Notes under the pieces: model-generated | Database searches by the model: none | Seen by the model: the letters and a program-made list of their open reading frames with translations, nothing else | What the model was told of the DNA's origin: nothing | Translations under genes and position numbers: made by a program | Origin: Stigmatella ashevillena | GTDB lineage: Bacteria > Myxococcota > Myxococcia > Myxococcales > Myxococcaceae | Length of the DNA stretch: 64,000 nucleotides | Direction of reading: 5' to 3' | Assembly: GCF_028368975.1 (NCBI RefSeq) | Contig: NZ_JAQNDM010000002.1 | Coordinates: 5,202,425-5,266,424, forward strand | Shown: positions 6,804 through 17,016 of the stretch, piece after piece | Layout of the letters: each line of letters starts with the position of its first letter | Position numbering within the stretch: position 1 is the first letter of the stretch

Positions 6804-8054
6804 ATGGCCATGCCCAAGAGCTCCGAGAAAGAACACATCCCGAGCCTGCGATTGACGAGCGTCCAGGTGGAGCGATTCAAGGCCGCATTCAAGCCCACAC
6901 CTGTTCCCTTGCGTCCCTTCAACCTGATCCTGGGACGAAATGGGGCTGGCAAAAGCACGTTGCTGGAGGCACTCCAGTGGGTGGATGGCACGCTCCGGCA
7001 GGACGCGCGCACTGCTTTGCAGCGGTACTTCGGCATTGCGCCCGTCGTCAATGTCCGCTCCCAGCAGACGTTCTTTCAACTCGGGCTCACCTGGAAGAGC
7101 GAAGACGAAAGCGAGCTCAACTACAAGGTCAAGGTTGTCCAGGGTCGTGATGGAGTGACCCCGTTGATTGCCCAGGAGTTCTTGAAGTCCGTACAGGGGA
7201 GAAAAAGACCCAGGACGATCATCGACACCACAGTCCCTGCGAACGCCAAGAAAGACCGGCCCGGGGTTCGCATCGTCTATCCCAGAGATTTGCGATTCAA
7301 GCGCGAGGTCAACGAGCCTGACAGGCTCGCGCTCCGGCAAGCGGGAGTCACCCCCATCTCAAACACAGGCTTCAAGGACCGCTTCGTTCTGCCAGCGCTC
7401 AGTGCGTTCTGGGAGAACGCCGTCTTCTTGAGGCTGAGTACCAGCCGACTGGCAGCAGGGTCTCCTGCGCGGCGAAAGTCCTTTGAGCCTCTCCTCGACG
7501 AAGAAGGCACCAACCTGCCAGCGCTGCTCAATGAGTTGAGCCGGGCGCAACTCGAGGATCTGGTCGTCCGCATCCAACAGGTGTTGAGCGGCATCGAGCA
7601 GGTCAAGATCTCCAAGCCCAGGGCGGGGCAACAAGAGAATGTCAACTATTCTCTCCGGGAGAGAATGCCCTACAAGGGACGCAATGGAACAGACCTTTTC
7701 GACATTCCTTCGTGGATGTTGTCAGAAGGCACACGGCGAATCACAGCCCTCTTCGCCCTGCTCGTACATGATCCCCCTCCTTCGCTTCTGTGTATCGAGG
7801 AGGTAGAGAATGGGCTCGACCCTTGGACCGTGCTGGAGGTCATCAAAGCACTTCGCTCGGCCACGGATGCAGGGACTCAGGTCATCGTGACTTCTCATTC
7901 ACCTTGGCTGATCGATCATGTGGATCTCCAAGACATCCTCCTCGTGGAGCGAGTGAAAGGGACAACAGAGTACCGGCGATTCGCAGACATGGAGGAAGCG
8001 AAACGTTTCTCCAGCGACGTTCCTCCGGGAGCGCGGTATGTCAACAGCAGGTAG
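6804..8054 (+). CDS. AAA family (OLD/SMC-like) ATPase, first gene of a two-gene module
   Basis: ABC/SMC-type ATPase of 416 residues. The Walker A motif is GRNGAGKS (44-51) after an N-terminal strand VQVERFKAAF. An ABC-like signature LSEGTRRI lies near residue 306, Walker B CIEEVENGLDP near 330, and the H-loop VTSHSPWLIDHV near 362-373. This layout is the AAA_21/AAA_15 type found in OLD, Gabija, PARIS and retron-linked ATPases. The stop overlaps the next gene by 17 bases, which implies coupled translation and a two-protein complex. Base composition is visibly AT-richer than the flanking genes, which suggests acquisition. Defence is the likeliest role from context, but this is an inference. Confidence 0.85.
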   Translation: MAMPKSSEKEHIPSLRLTSVQVERFKAAFKPTPVPLRPFNLILGRNGAGKSTLLEALQWVDGTLRQDARTALQRYFGIAPVVNVRSQQTFFQLGLTWKSEDESELNYKVKVVQGRDGVTPLIAQEFLKSVQGRKRPRTIIDTTVPANAKKDRPGVRIVYPRDLRFKREVNEPDRLALRQAGVTPISNTGFKDRFVLPALSAFWENAVFLRLSTSRLAAGSPARRKSFEPLLDEEGTNLPALLNELSRAQLEDLVVRIQQVLSGIEQVKISKPRAGQQENVNYSLRERMPYKGRNGTDLFDIPSWMLSEGTRRITALFALLVHDPPPSLLCIEEVENGLDPWTVLEVIKALRSATDAGTQVIVTSHSPWLIDHVDLQDILLVERVKGTTEYRRFADMEEAKRFSSDVPPGARYVNSR

Positions 8055-8871
8055 AGCCAAGCCGTTGAGATTGGCGCTCTTCGCCGAAGGGACGACGGAC
8101 CCGTCCCTGGACAAGCTCTGGGGCGAAGAGATTCCAAAGTTTCTGGGACTGGCTCCTTTCGACCGGGTCATCGGCTTCAGCAAGCATCACATGGTCGCGA
8201 TGAGCAAAGCGAACATGAGCTTGAAGTTCAAAACGAGTACCCTGTCCGTGGGGCTCGACGTCATCCTTGCCCAGGAGTTGCAAAAGAAAGACTTTGATTG
8301 TGCGGTTGTGGCCTGGGACCTTGTACCCGCTTGGGACAGCGGCTCAGACGCCACGGCCTGCCGCTGGCAAGACACGCTCTTGCTGTACGAAGGATTGGCA
8401 CGGAGTCAAAAGCTGCCTCCTCTCTGGCACCAACGGGCAACAGAACGCTTCCACGAATTGAAGGCACGACCCAAGCCATCGGACCGGAAGGCGTTGCCAC
8501 GGCCTGAGCCAGGAATGGTCCTCAGCGTGTGCATGGAGCCTGAGTTCGAAGGACTGCTCCTGGACGAGGCAGGGGTCAAGGCCGCGCTGGGCCTGAAGGG
8601 GAAGAAACTCCCCCGCCGGTGGCCCACCACCTGGAAACACACGCCAGCACCTCGGCCCTCCGAGACGCTGGCGAGAGCCATCGAGGCAGCCAGGAGCCTG
8701 CAGCCGCAGCCTCCTGTCTTCCGGAAGGTCCGCCAGCCCCTGCGCGAGGCAAAGCATGAATGGGGCAGGCTGCTGCTCAGCAGTGCCACCCCTGAATTTC
8801 GACGCAATATCCTGGCGCATCCGCTGGCTGAACGATTGAGGCTCTTGTTGTCGGCTGTTCCTCCTCCGTGA
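8038..8871 (+). CDS. TOPRIM/DUF4276-like partner of the AAA ATPase
   Basis: Protein of 277 residues starting inside the end of the ATPase gene. Three acidic motifs suit a TOPRIM-like or DUF4276 nuclease fold: FAEGTTD with Glu17, VVAWDLVPAWD with Asp94 and Asp100, and CMEPEFEGLL with Glu167, Glu169 and Glu171. The C-terminal third is basic. Proteins of this kind pair with AAA ATPases in several anti-phage modules, where the ATPase controls the effector. No transposase or integrase adjoins the pair. The fold assignment is by motif only; a non-nuclease role is possible. Confidence 0.65.
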   Translation: MSTAGRAKPLRLALFAEGTTDPSLDKLWGEEIPKFLGLAPFDRVIGFSKHHMVAMSKANMSLKFKTSTLSVGLDVILAQELQKKDFDCAVVAWDLVPAWDSGSDATACRWQDTLLLYEGLARSQKLPPLWHQRATERFHELKARPKPSDRKALPRPEPGMVLSVCMEPEFEGLLLDEAGVKAALGLKGKKLPRRWPTTWKHTPAPRPSETLARAIEAARSLQPQPPVFRKVRQPLREAKHEWGRLLLSSATPEFRRNILAHPLAERLRLLLSAVPPP

Positions 8872-8889: not shown

Positions 8890-9099
8890 CTACCCGCCGT
8901 GGGTGCCGCCCTCTTCTCGCAGGGACATCGTGGTGATGATGCCAGGGGGGGTGCTGCCTCCCTCCTCCCCCACCGCCAGCGTCGTCACCGGCCGGGGCTT
9001 CTCCTTGCTCCCTTGCTCGATGGGGGCGGGCGGCCTGCCCCCGAGCCTCACCGGCAGCTCGTACTGGATGAACGATGGGCCCTTCGGGTGCCTCGGCAT
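8890..9099 (-). CDS. Graspetide (plesiocin-type) precursor peptide
   Basis: A 69-residue peptide gene with a good AGGAG ribosome site 7-8 bases before the ATG. Residues 1-38 look like a leader, including the segment FIQYELPVRLGG, a likely enzyme-recognition element. The remainder holds two copies of TTxxxxEE: TTLAVGEEGG at 39-48 and TTMSLREEGG at 56-65, each followed by Gly-Gly. TTxxxxEE is the hallmark of plesiocin-type (group 2) graspetides, in which threonines are joined to glutamates by side-chain ester bonds made by an ATP-grasp ligase. The ATP-grasp gene lies directly divergent, 114 bases away. No transporter or protease is adjacent. The reverse reading of the same DNA is a shadow. Confidence 0.85.
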   Translation of the reverse strand: MPRHPKGPSFIQYELPVRLGGRPPAPIEQGSKEKPRPVTTLAVGEEGGSTPPGIITTMSLREEGGTHGG

Positions 9100-9213
9100 G
9101 GTTCGCTCCTGGATGTGGCGGCGGGCCGCGCTTGTTGTCTCCTCGCCTCTACGGGCAAGGTGCGCCTTGCTTGCGTGGGCCGGAAGTCTCCGCCGCCCCC
9201 GGAATAAAACTCC
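9100..9213. promoter_or_regulatory. Divergent promoter region of the graspetide locus
   Basis: The 114 bases between the precursor (leftward) and the ATP-grasp ligase (rightward) must contain both promoters. The precursor side has the AGGAG ribosome site. The ligase side has only a weak GGAA about 10 bases before its ATG, so the ligase may be made at a lower level. I cannot identify convincing -35/-10 boxes. Confidence 0.4.
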
Positions 9214-10176
9214 ATGCGAATCGGCATCTTCGGCGAGGCAGAGGATCCACAGTGCCTGGCCGTGGCCCGCGAGGCGGCGGCGCTCGGCGCGGAGGCGCTC
9301 CTCTTCGACAGTGGGGCGCTCGCGGCGGGCCGGCCGCTCTCCCTGCTCGATGGGCGGATGTTCTACCTCGGCGAGCCCGTGGACGACGTGAAGGGCTTCT
9401 ACCTGCGCTCCGTGCCCTCGCCCTACGTCCCAGCGATGGAGCGGGACGACACGCTCGTGCTCTACGAGGACTGGTTCACCACCTTCGCGCAGACTCGCGA
9501 GCGGGCCGCCTACGTCCTGTCGTGGCTGCTCCAGCTCGAGCACCAGGGGGCCACGCTCGTCAACGGCCCCCACGCCGCGAGCATGCTGCAATACAAGCCC
9601 TTCCAACTTCACGTGCTGCGCTCCCTGGGCACGCGCGTGCCCCGCACACTCATCTCGAATGATCCGGCCGCCATCCGCGCCTTCCACGCCGAGGTGAAGG
9701 ACGTCATCTACAAGCCCGTGCTGGGCGGCGCGCTCACGCGGCCCCTGGACACCGAGGCGCTGGAGCGGCTCGGCACCGTGACGGCCTCGCCGGTCATCTT
9801 CCAAGAGCGCGTGCCCGGAGAGGACCTGCGGGTGATGCTCGTCGGGGAGGACATCGTCTCGTGCGTGGCCATCGAGACACCCGCGCCCCACCTCGACTTC
9901 CGGAGCGATCCGGCCTACCGCTCGGGACAAGCCACCTACCGCGAGGTGGTGCTGCCGGAGCCGGTGCGCCGCTTCTGCCGGGAAGCCGCGCGGGCGTGTG
10001 GCCTGACGCTCGCGGGGATCGACCTCAAGCACCACGGGGACCAATTCGTGTTCCTGGAGCTGAACAGCTCCCCCATCTATCTGGACGTCGAGCAGAAGCA
10101 GGGCCACGCCATCAGCCGAGCCATCGCGCGCCGCGTGGTGGAGGCGGCACGCTCTACGCCTTCGCCGGGGCCTTGA
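9214..10176 (+). CDS. ATP-grasp graspetide ligase (RimK/microviridin-ligase-like)
   Basis: ATP-grasp enzyme of 320 residues. The N-terminal ~110 residues form the pre-ATP-grasp and leader-binding part (LYEDWFTTFAQTRERAAYVLSWLL). The central part has the nucleotide-binding strands (DVIYKPVLGG, VIFQERVPGEDLRVMLVG). Metal ligands lie at Asp270 (AGIDLKHH) and Glu282/Asn284 (FLELNSSP). These features match the MvdD/MdnC/PsnB family that joins Ser/Thr side chains to Asp/Glu in a precursor peptide. The divergent 69-residue peptide with two TTxxxxEE modules is the obvious substrate. The 3' end overlaps the convergent hybrid kinase by 23 bases. Confidence 0.9.
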   Translation: MRIGIFGEAEDPQCLAVAREAAALGAEALLFDSGALAAGRPLSLLDGRMFYLGEPVDDVKGFYLRSVPSPYVPAMERDDTLVLYEDWFTTFAQTRERAAYVLSWLLQLEHQGATLVNGPHAASMLQYKPFQLHVLRSLGTRVPRTLISNDPAAIRAFHAEVKDVIYKPVLGGALTRPLDTEALERLGTVTASPVIFQERVPGEDLRVMLVGEDIVSCVAIETPAPHLDFRSDPAYRSGQATYREVVLPEPVRRFCREAARACGLTLAGIDLKHHGDQFVFLELNSSPIYLDVEQKQGHAISRAIARRVVEAARSTPSPGP

Positions 10177-13117: not shown

Positions 13118-16100
13118 GGCGGTCCCTCCGCTCCCCCCCTGCCCTCGCACCCGCCGTGAGCGGCATGCGGACCGTGAACGTGGTCCCCTCCCCCTCCACA
13201 GACCGGACCTCGACCTGACCGCCATGCGCACGCACGATGTGATCCACGATGTAGAGCCCCAGGCCCACGCTGCGCCCGATGTTGTTCGCTTCTGACTCCC
13301 CGCGCTGCATGGGCTGGAAGAGCCGCGGCAGCAGCGTCGCCGGAATCGGAGCCCCTTCGTTGTGGACCTCGAGCACCGCTTGTGCCCCCTCCTCGAATAC
13401 CCGCACCCGGACTGGCGTTCCAGGACGGCTGTAGTGGACGGCGTTGCTGATGAGGTTGGTCAAGACCTGCGCCGTCCGGTCTCCATCCCAGACTGCCTGG
13501 CCCGCGCCCCCGCGCTCCAGCTCGATGACGCGCTCGGGATGCGCGGCCTGGAGCTCGTCCACCACCTGCTGGCTCAGCGCGTGGACATCGAGCGCCTTCG
13601 GCTGGATGGGCAGCCCCCCGCCCAGCCGGGCCTGCGTGAAGTCGAGCAGATCCCGGATCATCCGGTTGGCCCGCTCCGCCGCCGTGAAGATGCGGCTGAT
13701 GGGCCTGCGCTGGCGCTCCTCCAGCTCCGTCCGGCGCAGCAGCGTCGCGGCCGACAGGGTAATGGCCGCCAGGGGATTGCGCAGATCATGGCTGACGATG
13801 CCGATGAGGTGCTGCTCGAAGTCGGCGCGCTCCTGCGCCAGCCGCTCGCGCTTCGCGCGCTCCCGCGCCAGCCGCAAGACGCCTTCCACGCGGGCCAGCA
13901 GTTCCCGCGTACTGAAGGGCTTCACGAGGTAGTCATCGGCCCCCGCCTGGAGCCCTCCCACCGTGGCCTCCTCGCCCGCGCGCGCGGACAAGAGGATGAA
14001 GGGCACGGCCGTGGTCCTCGGGTTCGCGCGGAACTCGCGCAGCAGCCCAAAGCCATCCATCCCCGGCATCATCACATCCGACAGCACGAGGTCCGGAAGG
14101 CGGGCCTCGGCCGCCGCGAGCGCCGCCGCCCCATCCGCCACCGTCTCGACGGTGAAGCGCGTCTCCAGCAGGCGCCGCACGTAGTCGCGCATGTCCGCGT
14201 TGTCGTCGGCGAGCAGGATGTGCCCCCCGGAGGCCTGGCTCCGGGCCTGGGGCAGGACCTCCGGCGCCGCCAGCACCTCCTCAGGGCTTCCCGAGAGCGG
14301 CCTCACGGTGCCCAACCACCCCGAGGCTTCATTGAGAAAGGGGGCCACCCCGGGGCTGGTCGGCGCATGGGTCCGGGGCGCGGCGAGCCGCTCGCGCGGC
14401 AGGTGGGCGGAGCCGGCCGGCAGGGTCACCGTGAAGGTGCTGCCCCGGCCCGGCGTGCTGTCGGCCCGGACGGTGCCCCCGTGCAGCCGGACCAGCTCCT
14501 GCACCAGGGACAGCCCGATGCCACTGCCCTCGTGGCTGCGGCCCCTCGCGCCTTGCACCCGGTGAAAGCGCTCGAAGATGCGGGGCAGCTCCTCAGAAGG
14601 AATGCCCGTGCCGGTGTCCCACACAGACAGCTCCACCTGAGGTGCCCGCCACCGCAGGGCCACGCCAATCTCCCCCTCGAAGGTGAACTTGAGCGCGTTG
14701 GAGACGAGGTTGAGGACAACCTTCTCCCACATCTCCGGATCCACCCAGATGGGGGCCGGCAGCGGTGGACACTCCACGACGAGGCGCAGCCCGGCCTTCA
14801 TCACGGCGGAGTCGAACGCGCTGGCGAGGCCCACGGTGAGGGCCGCGAGGTCCGTGGGCTGGTAGCTGGCCTGCACACGGCCGGCCTCCAGGCGGCTGAA
14901 GTCCAGGAGCGTGTTGACGAGCTTGAAGAGGCGCAAGCCATTGCGGTGGACCCGCTCCAGCGCCTCGCGCTCCTCGCGCTCCAGCCGGTCCGAGGCGAGC
15001 ACATCCTCGACCGGGCCGAGCATCAGCGTCAGCGGCGTGCGGAACTCGTGGCTCACGTTGCTGAAGAAGACCGTCTTCGAGCGATCCAGCTCGGCGAGCG
15101 TCTCCGCGCGGCGCTTCTCCTCCTCGTAGGCCCGCGCGTTGGCGATGGCCGTGGAGATGTGACCGGCGACGAGCCCCATGAAGCCCCGGTACCGCTCGTC
15201 GTACTCGAGACGAACGCTCAGGCCAATCAGCAGGAACCCCGCGGGGCTTCCCTCGGCCGCGCCCTCCATGGCCAGCACCATGGCATGGGTGGGCGCCCGC
15301 GGCCCCTCGACCACCAGCTCCGCCCGCAGCACTTGCGCCAGGTGCGCCACCTCGAGCGGCTGGCGCGATTGAAGGGCCCCGTGCAGCGCGCCGCCCTCCT
15401 GGAACACCTCCATGCCGAGCCGCGGCTGCGGGGAGGACGTCCCCGGCGGAAGCCCTGCCGAGGCGGCCAGGGACGCGTGCTGGCCGTCCGCATCACACAG
15501 GTAGAGGAGCGCGAAGGGCAAGTCGTGCGGGTTTTCTCCGAGCGCCTGAACCGCCCGAAGGGCCGCGTCTTCGACGCGCTTGGCCCGAAACGAGCTGGCG
15601 GCGACTTGCTGAAGGGTGTGCAGACGCCGCTCCCCGAGGACCTGGCTGCTGGTCTCCTGGGCGGTGACGAGCACGCCGCCCGGCTTCCCGAAGCCATCGG
15701 GAATGGGGCTGTACGAGAAGGTGAAGTAGGCGTCCTCGGTGAACCCCTTCCGACAGATGGTCAACAGAAAATGCTCGCCCCACTCGGCCCGGCCGGTCCG
15801 GAGGACGCCTTCGTGCAGGGGGCCCAGGACGTGCCAGATTTCCGCCCAGGTCTGCGCGGCGGACTCGCCCAAGGCTGCGGGGTGTTTGTCACCCAGAACG
15901 GGCCGATAGGCATCGTTGTAAAATTGAAGCAGACGCTCGCCCCAGCGAATCACCATGGGAAAGCGGTTGCCGAGCACCACGCCGACCAGGGCGCGCAGGG
16001 CAGGCGGCCAGGCGTCCACGGGCCCGAGTTCCGTCTTCGACCAGTCGATGGAGCGCATGAGGGCGCCCATCTCTCCGCCCCCTGCGAAGACCTCCTCGGC

Positions 16101-16118
16101 TGAGCTACCCGGGCTCAT
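13110..16118 (-). CDS. Hybrid sensor kinase paralogue: PAS-GAF-HK-REC-HK
   Basis: Hybrid kinase of 1002 residues with the same layout as its downstream neighbour. The two share the N-terminal signature GGGEMGALMRS(I/M)DW, the first transmitter SHEFRTPLTLML (His357), the receiver LSDVMMPGMDGFGLL (Asp681) and a second transmitter VSHDLRNPLAAITL (His777) ending in GLGLYIVDHIVRAHGG. The start ATG at 16118 has a strong GGAAGGAAGGTGG ribosome site. It overlaps the following gene by 8 bases, so both are probably made together and could form heterodimers. Its divergence from the partner lies mainly in the GAF-like segment and the second kinase module, which suggests different signals feeding related outputs. 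Confidence 0.93.
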   Translation of the reverse strand: MSPGSSAEEVFAGGGEMGALMRSIDWSKTELGPVDAWPPALRALVGVVLGNRFPMVIRWGERLLQFYNDAYRPVLGDKHPAALGESAAQTWAEIWHVLGPLHEGVLRTGRAEWGEHFLLTICRKGFTEDAYFTFSYSPIPDGFGKPGGVLVTAQETSSQVLGERRLHTLQQVAASSFRAKRVEDAALRAVQALGENPHDLPFALLYLCDADGQHASLAASAGLPPGTSSPQPRLGMEVFQEGGALHGALQSRQPLEVAHLAQVLRAELVVEGPRAPTHAMVLAMEGAAEGSPAGFLLIGLSVRLEYDERYRGFMGLVAGHISTAIANARAYEEEKRRAETLAELDRSKTVFFSNVSHEFRTPLTLMLGPVEDVLASDRLEREEREALERVHRNGLRLFKLVNTLLDFSRLEAGRVQASYQPTDLAALTVGLASAFDSAVMKAGLRLVVECPPLPAPIWVDPEMWEKVVLNLVSNALKFTFEGEIGVALRWRAPQVELSVWDTGTGIPSEELPRIFERFHRVQGARGRSHEGSGIGLSLVQELVRLHGGTVRADSTPGRGSTFTVTLPAGSAHLPRERLAAPRTHAPTSPGVAPFLNEASGWLGTVRPLSGSPEEVLAAPEVLPQARSQASGGHILLADDNADMRDYVRRLLETRFTVETVADGAAALAAAEARLPDLVLSDVMMPGMDGFGLLREFRANPRTTAVPFILLSARAGEEATVGGLQAGADDYLVKPFSTRELLARVEGVLRLARERAKRERLAQERADFEQHLIGIVSHDLRNPLAAITLSAATLLRRTELEERQRRPISRIFTAAERANRMIRDLLDFTQARLGGGLPIQPKALDVHALSQQVVDELQAAHPERVIELERGGAGQAVWDGDRTAQVLTNLISNAVHYSRPGTPVRVRVFEEGAQAVLEVHNEGAPIPATLLPRLFQPMQRGESEANNIGRSVGLGLYIVDHIVRAHGGQVEVRSVEGEGTTFTVRMPLTAGARAGGERRDRHG

Positions 16119-16317
16119 GCCACCTTCCTTCCCTGCTGGGCCGCGCTGGCATGCGCGCCCCGGCATACCAGGGACAATCCCCGCCAGGACCGAAAACTTC
16201 TGCCGCCGCCGGTCATCCGATGTGTTCCGAACGACTCACCCTCCCGGCAGAGCAGGCAGGCAGCCACGCACCGCGGCCATCGGCACGTGGGACCCCAGCG
16301 AGGATGAGGGAGTCCCC

Positions 16318-17016
16318 ATGAAGCGCAGCAGGGTGCTGATGAACACTCCTGCCCTCACCGGGGATGACCGCTACGCCCTGGCCATGTCGTTTGCCCTTGA
16401 TGCCGTCATCCCCGAGATGATGGAGAACTTCCAAGGCATGACCGACCCTGAGATGCTCAGGGCCTCCTTGTCTTGGACGATGACGCTCTACGCTGCACGG
16501 CCATGTGCTGGGGAAGAACGCGGCGCGCGCATTCGCCCTGCTGCTCACGGCGGCCATGGGCCAGACGGTCTCCAGTTTCTCGGCCAAGGTGCCCACGCTG
16601 GCCGACTCAGCGAAGGCCTCCGCCCTTGGCGCGGCACAGGCGGGAATCCGGCTGACAGAGGTGGCGCAGGTGGAAGCCGTGACTGTGACCGCGGGTACCA
16701 TCACCTTCGCGTTGGCACCTCATGCCGTCGCCTCCGTGGCCCAGGGCGGGCGCGGAGCAGCTTCCAGTCCGGTCGATGCAGCAGGGCCCGAGCACCATAT
16801 CGCCACAGACAAGTGGACCCATGCCACCCACAGTGGGGGTACCCGGAAGAATATCATCAGGAAGTCTTTGATCGGCTGAGCGAGGCCATGCAGGGCTGCC
16901 GCAACGTCCAGCAATGCCGAGACGCCCTGACAGGAGCACTCCAGCGGCTGGGACGCCTCTTCGCCACACCTGGGAGTAGACTCAATAAGCTGGTTACCCA
17001 AGGCTCCCCGCGCTAG
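16318..17016 (+). pseudogene. Decayed SitA-type polymorphic toxin gene
   Basis: Remnant of the same family as the intact toxin at 36043-37395. It starts with a ribosome site (GAGGGAG) and an ATG reading MKRSRVLMNTPALTGDDRYA. The frame then shifts near 16495 into HVLGKNAARAFALLLTAA, matching IGRESARALAMLLVAA in the intact copy. It continues through AKVPTLADSAKASAL and EHHIAT, then shifts back near 16840 into YHQEVFDRLSEAMQGCRNV, matching the intact YHQIVLKELSDATATCRSV. The C-terminus TPGSRLNKLVTQ matches TPGTELNQLVTR. The lipoprotein signal, the membrane-helix segment and much of the AHH-type nuclease domain are missing. The toxin is dead, yet the immunity gene 10 bases downstream is intact. 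Confidence 0.85.

Follow-up and report, generated by a model that had tools for sequence, protein, structure and literature searches.

The genome of Stigmatella ashevillena holds a locus in which a short peptide with repeated TTxxxxEE motifs is encoded next to an ATP-grasp ligase. Does this pair belong to the plesiocin-type graspetides, and what would its product do? We addressed the question in a window of 64,000 nt (GCF_028368975.1, contig NZ_JAQNDM010000002.1, positions 5,202,425-5,266,424 of the forward strand), the window being the whole stretch of DNA that was analyzed. Coordinates count from its first nucleotide, except where another locus is named. A preliminary description, made from the letters of this stretch, had taken the locus for a minimal plesiocin-type one.

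Results

The precursor gene

The precursor gene P0001 (8890..9099, minus strand; 69 aa plus stop) and the ATP-grasp graspetide synthetase gene P0002 (9214..10176, plus strand; 320 aa) are divergent and have in common an intergenic region of 114 bp between their start codons (9100..9213). Translation bears out what had been described for the peptide: exact TTxxxxEE motifs stand at residues 39-46 (core module 1, TTLAVGEE, 8962..8985, minus strand) and 56-63 (core module 2, TTMSLREE, 8911..8934, minus strand), each followed by GG, and comparison of the loops marks that of module 2 as unusual. The leader carries the motif SFIQYELP (residues 9-16; 9052..9075, minus strand), which is conserved in the precursor alignment and is presumed to be the docking site of the ligase.

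The frame of the precursor is open for 448 aa from stop to stop and reaches the antisense strand of the ligase, so the length of the ORF is no evidence of coding. Shuffling the peptide 200,000 times yielded two TTxxxxEE motifs in about 2 cases (1e-5) and one or more in 0.38%. The Shine-Dalgarno sequence AGGAG precedes the gene at 9106..9110 (minus strand); the window and all five relatives inspected have AGGAG or GGAGG just 5' of the precursor's ATG, and in the same six loci the start codons of precursor and ligase are 104-117 bp apart. The gene differs from that of the related genome G037 by 15 changes, a small number, of which 10 are synonymous and 5 non-synonymous; dN/dS is 0.16. The other two sense frames gave 0.76 and 1.74, and two antisense frames of the region gave 1.18 and 0.23, the latter frame having matching wobble positions. 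The ligases of the same two genomes differ by 37 synonymous and 21 non-synonymous changes (dN 0.031, dS 0.167). Thus, the precursor evolves as a coding gene and is constrained about as much as its ligase. A search of the PDB with the precursor returned no match. A homology search of its own genome returned the gene itself and six weak matches, the best of them (E 0.008) with an internal stop; the same search missed a known second precursor, so others are possible.

The ligase and its relation to PsnB

The ligase matches Pfam PF08443 (RimK) with 36.6 bits (cut-off 21) and NCBIfam TIGR04187 (ATP-grasp ribosomal peptide maturase) with 112 bits, below the cut-off of 350. The closest sequence of solved structure is PsnB (7drm; E 5.8e-40, 140.5 bits). 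An AlphaFold model built from 19 orthologues (pLDDT 79.3) likewise has PsnB as the best fold in the PDB (7drp; E 1.1e-25, TM 0.82/0.84, rmsd 3.6, 32% identity), followed by MdnC, AMdnB, a Chryseobacterium ligase and PruB, with RimK lower. Since the structures of PsnB and MdnC rank above RimK, a RimK-type ligase of protein tails was rejected as the best reading of the enzyme. K167, E282 and N284 are invariant in the 19 aligned ligases and K128 and D270 nearly so; we take these residues to be the ATP and metal ligands of ATP-grasp enzymes, and the window ligase is intact at the conserved positions. Both sequence features expected of a graspetide locus are in place: an ATP-grasp ligase of the MvdD/PsnB kind, scoring below the curated NCBIfam cut-offs, adjoins a precursor that has a conserved leader segment and a Thr/Ser...Glu/Asp core.

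TTxxxxEE is the core motif that defines the plesiocin group (group 2), and the window precursor has two exact copies of it. The enzyme and the leader point elsewhere. At G000 C2:4249134-4250045 (L004, L127) the same genome encodes a ligase that matches PsnB with 326.6 bits (E 1.5e-96), against 141 for the window ligase, and by this comparison the window ligase is not the PsnB orthologue. Like the window pair, that locus combines the TTxxxxEE motif with a single ligase; it differs in that its precursor has one module (TTFALAEE), the leader LFVQDL and a position downstream of the ligase on the same strand. In a ligase tree the window type is separate from five PsnB-like ligases; this was a quick tree of 38 rows with SH-aLRT support only, in which the program flagged long branches and PsnB itself is absent. 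The PsnB-like relatives compared here have leaders of the form LFV-x-D/G-L, whereas the window branch has SFIxYELP. Judged by sequence, then, the window ligase and leader form a branch that is sister to the PsnB-like ones and lies outside their group. Of the description as a plesiocin-type locus, the TTxxxxEE modules, the match to PsnB in sequence and fold and the conserved pairing of the two genes stand, but the placing of ligase and leader has to be changed accordingly.

The leader type is well kept within the branch. F10, I11, L15 and P16 are invariant in all ten aligned short precursors of the window type, and of the 24 Myxococcota precursors 21 have F[ITV]x[YF] in the leader (the exceptions are L022, L051 and L071). 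Two cyanobacterial relatives, with ligases 52 and 55% identical, combine NPFTDYxLP leaders with TTxxxxEE modules; in L078 and L085 (ligase about 37% identical) the modules are present and the window-type leader is absent. F10, L15 and G20-G21 have the spacing of double-glycine leaders; cleavage of this kind was not adopted, as G039, G041 and the Archangium forms lack the GG.

Several unusual loci were met on the way. The window's own genome has a tandem pair of further graspetide-type ATP-grasp ligases (G000 C2:4153648-4155316, L128; 32-34% identity over the C-terminal part), at which a search for T[TS]xxxx[DE]E gave nothing. In L078 (5456-6004, a Sericytochromatia MAG) TTxxxxEE alternates with LTKMIGENGE-like modules. 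L120 (2530-2916) has TTxxxxEEDGG modules together with VIKVRADDP, a sequence similar to corallotide's KxxxD repeats (PMC13097080, excerpt). The precursor beside the 55%-identical ligase (L074:4991-6025, minus strand, a Cyanobium MAG) has two TTxxxxEE modules and then a long C-terminal part with glycine-rich repeats of RTX-like type (PF00353 at 19.7 bits, E 8.5e-4, where the cut-off is 23; start codon uncertain), a sequence which suggests a graspetide routed by type I secretion.

Conservation of the gene pair

Among the matches listed for the 96 family genomes, at least 26 orthologous ligase genes (identity at least 59%) were found in at least 25 genomes; two contig pieces of G056 were counted as one gene and G040 contributes two, and the matches in G056 and G080 are partial. 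The search for TTxxxxEE in relatives, which the preliminary description had proposed, finds precursors with such modules beside 24 of the 26 listed ligases. The same description would have counted the absence of the peptide gene beside orthologous ligases against itself; a related gene or a fragment of one lies beside each of the 26. Single-Thr modules occur as well: 14 of the form xTxxxPEE adjoin an orthologous ligase in G040 C370 (L053:10461-11540, xTxxxPEEGG), and two xTxxxPEEGG modules are left next to the truncated ligase match of G080 (L079:5868-6191). Arrays of this kind would possibly give monocyclic hairpins. The pair is divergent in 24 of the 26 listed loci. In G046 the array gene is on the opposite strand, 3' of the ligase and before a second, partial ligase match; in G080 the order is disrupted. 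A second copy in G040 (C279, L021) retains a single module, and its ligase is without the nearly invariant K128 and D270; from its sequence this copy looks decayed. A plasmid search returned one distant match (35% identity over 66%).

Number of modules and loop residues

Modules were surveyed in 24 Myxococcota precursors with the pattern [TS][TS]xxxx[DE][DE], which gave 174 modules; the survey was drawn up apart from G056 (11 modules), the two single-Thr precursors, L120 and four precursors from outside Myxococcota. Counts of strict TTxxxxEE are lower in seven of the 24, and one module of the pair in G039 and in G041 starts with TS. One module is present in four Archangium-type genomes and in the G040 C279 copy, one module plus TTLAVGKE in G157, and two in the window, G037, G039, G041 and G042. 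Ten other precursors (Myxococcus/Pyxidicoccus and MAGs) have 10-18 modules and three at contig ends at least 5, 6 and 8, while the cyanobacterial relatives have 2-4. The locus is thus not the minimal form, as single modules occur in the Archangium relatives and 10-18 in others. The short forms may be reduced or the long ones expanded, the ligase tree giving weak support to the forks that decide the order of the clades. Tandem units are visible in the L048 array. We do not claim recent homogenization of array modules, because DNA identity is only slightly higher within arrays than between them (0.822 vs 0.792).

The third residue of the motif, which we take to face the protease by analogy with microviridin, is L in 60 modules, M in 55, K in 41, Q in 8, A in 4, R in 3 and E in 3, so that L, M and K together make up 156 of 174. 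K is mixed with L/M only in the long arrays of relatives. In the two window modules the residue is L and M; both are hydrophobic, and two specificities are therefore not indicated, which leaves the earlier suggestion that the two hairpins inhibit different proteases weak. The commonest loop is LAVG, that of module 1 (47 of 174), and GG directly follows 148 modules. The loop of module 2, MSLR, occurs twice among the 174, in the window and G037; elsewhere in the two-module clade module 2 has MGLA, MALG or MAVG. At the sixth position of the motif, 167 of 174 modules have G and window module 2 has R. Because of this unusual loop, module 2 may be a poorer substrate of the ligase and be cyclized poorly.

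Genomic neighborhood

The surroundings were compared for 21 of the 26 listed loci (the window and 16 others with about 19-20 kb, four on shorter contigs). The ligase and precursor are the only component common to all 21; other shared families are confined to one clade or to related ones. In the window's clade a metallophosphoesterase lies near the pair (six loci). The preliminary description had seen no transporter or protease nearby, and this agrees with the annotation: neither a peptidase nor a peptide exporter is among the seven annotated genes of the window and 20 annotated neighbors in the loci of five relatives, which include one K+ transporter, LysR regulators and sensor kinases. Four C39 peptidase matches exist in the genome, none within the window, and the shared export route that had been considered for the product is possible but unsupported. 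An NHLM-type transporter, frequent though not obligatory in group 2, is absent from the annotated neighbors of the window-type pair; it is likewise absent from nine neighbors of the PsnB-like locus of the same genome, so the lack of an exporter is in itself no distinguishing trait of the window branch.

Two histidine kinases lie downstream of the pair. No functional link to them is claimed, as counterparts beside the pair are found only in G037. Other sensor kinases, at varying positions, occur in the flanks of seven further loci of the 21 (clades g1, g8 and g19; three annotated, the others by similarity), and kinases are very numerous in myxobacteria. On the other flank, at 6804-8871 (plus strand), an AAA_21 ATPase gene (PADLOC HEC-01A-like, E 2.9e-40) overlaps a partner without Pfam match; nothing similar was found in the 20 relatives' loci compared, and this is possibly an inserted defense cassette. 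Farther away, an ORF at 15955-17016 (plus strand) has a weak match to an AHH nuclease domain (23.2 bits, cut-off 22.3).

Discussion

We read the pair as a graspetide locus that, by analogy with characterized systems, should form two bicyclic Thr-Glu ester hairpins, and assign to this a probability of about 0.8. As in PsnB and plesiocin, the ligase would bind the SFIQYELP segment of the leader and use ATP to phosphorylate the side chains of the Glu residues in every TTxxxxEE module; attack by the two Thr hydroxyls would then close two nested omega-esters in each module, with the loss of at most four waters in all (-72 Da), and with ring formation and connectivity modeled on the same pair. The product would be a bivalent hairpin peptide, which by the example of characterized graspetides most likely inhibits serine proteases of hydrophobic specificity, and action as a protease inhibitor is to us a reasonably probable function. 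As no dedicated exporter or protease was seen nearby, the product may have an intracellular or self-protective role or may leave the cell through an exporter encoded elsewhere. Some observations speak against this reading: the ligase is about a third identical to PsnB and outside the PsnB-like clade, ligases of the branch were found in 25 of 96 family genomes among the matches listed, module 2 has R where 167 of 174 have G, and the system seems dispensable in G040 C279, where a module and conserved ligase residues were lost. Moreover, the group 2 graspetide Gra-5, which is without one donor/acceptor set, gave one water loss on expression (PMC9576775, excerpt).

The nearest known system is plesiocin (PsnA2-PsnB), which has in common with the window pair the tandem TTxxxxEE modules, the single ATP-grasp ligase and the ligase fold (7drm-7drp). 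Its four repeats carry two esters each (PMC12291112, excerpt), whereas the window branch has 1, 2 or 10-18 modules, a ligase about 32% identical to PsnB and, at its annotated neighbors, none of the NHLM-type transporters that group 2 often has (PMC13097080, excerpt). Microviridins are more distant: MdnC shares the ATP-grasp fold (5ig9) at 20-23% identity, and the three-core AMdnA-AMdnC system has multi-core precursors (PMC5934393, excerpt) as the window peptide does, but microviridins have a different core motif and a PFFARFL leader (PMC7823629, excerpt). Clusters of 'microviridin' type that are described as conserved in Archangium, Cystobacter and Sorangium (PMC12766979, excerpt) may or may not be members of the window branch. 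A survey of 2026 extends graspetides to 43 groups; its group 35 consists of synthetase and precursor alone, the precursors often being long with repeating motifs (PMC13097080, excerpt). Two-gene architecture and long repeat precursors fit the window branch by description, and the branch may be this uncharacterized group, which is a guess. No description of the branch was found among the literature matches listed, nor is it mentioned in the available part of PMC8939145. What is new is thus a separate branch of graspetide ligases and leaders, which may already carry a group number.

Would the same locus be explained as well without an inhibitor? The hairpins could be made and the peptide, its leader kept and with no export, could serve as an intracellular binding or structural peptide, the long Pro/Gly-rich arrays being cross-linked, possibly fibrous proteins. 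The absence of an exporter or peptidase among the annotated neighbors and the Pro/Gly linkers in relatives' arrays of 10-18 modules are in line with this, and corallotide, a large repeat graspetide of Corallococcus, is collagen-like and prone to aggregation (PMC13097080, excerpt). However, the third motif residues are concentrated on L, M and K, as expected of residues that determine protease specificity. Plesiocin, which shares the motif, inhibits serine proteases potently, and the more strongly the more modules it has (PMC13097080, excerpt), and all graspetides characterized so far are protease inhibitors (PMC8939145, excerpt). We regard such a role, binding or structural, as unlikely, if worth keeping in view.

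Still less probable is a locus in decay: an ancestral long array would have shrunk to the forms with one or two modules, and the window copy would yield hardly any product or none. Long arrays prevail among the other Myxococcota relatives, and in the tree of ligases the short forms fall inside that set; the G040 C279 copy and the variation of module 2 in the two-module clade would fit too. Against it stand the low dN/dS of the precursor, the intact window ligase and the identity of MSLR in the window and G037, and with weakly supported forks and 2-4 modules in cyanobacteria the loss itself is not proven. We rejected the reading of the precursor as a chance ORF antisense to the upstream region of the ligase, with an enzyme whose substrate is something else, for instance a RimK-type protein tail. 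The long open frame and the RimK-like Pfam name are what it has in its favor, and it becomes hardly credible in view of the shuffle odds of the exact motifs, the Shine-Dalgarno site, the dN/dS, the related gene beside orthologues and the first ranks of PsnB and MdnC among solved enzymes.

The predicted graspetide pair remains our preferred reading. What microviridins and plesiocin do in nature, and which native targets they have, is described as elusive (PMC9826346, excerpt). We tentatively suggest, as a view with less than even odds, a separate graspetide branch that has a leader code of its own and lacks dedicated export. The number of hairpins (1, 2 or 10-18) would evolve in it as in multi-headed protease inhibitors, and chains that mix K and L/M loops would be multi-specific inhibitor arrays working within the cell or against the producer's own proteases. 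The branch forms a natural series in which one family of enzymes works on 1, 2 or 10-18 hairpins with differing loop residues, and such a series in a two-gene system would let module number and specificity be tested directly.
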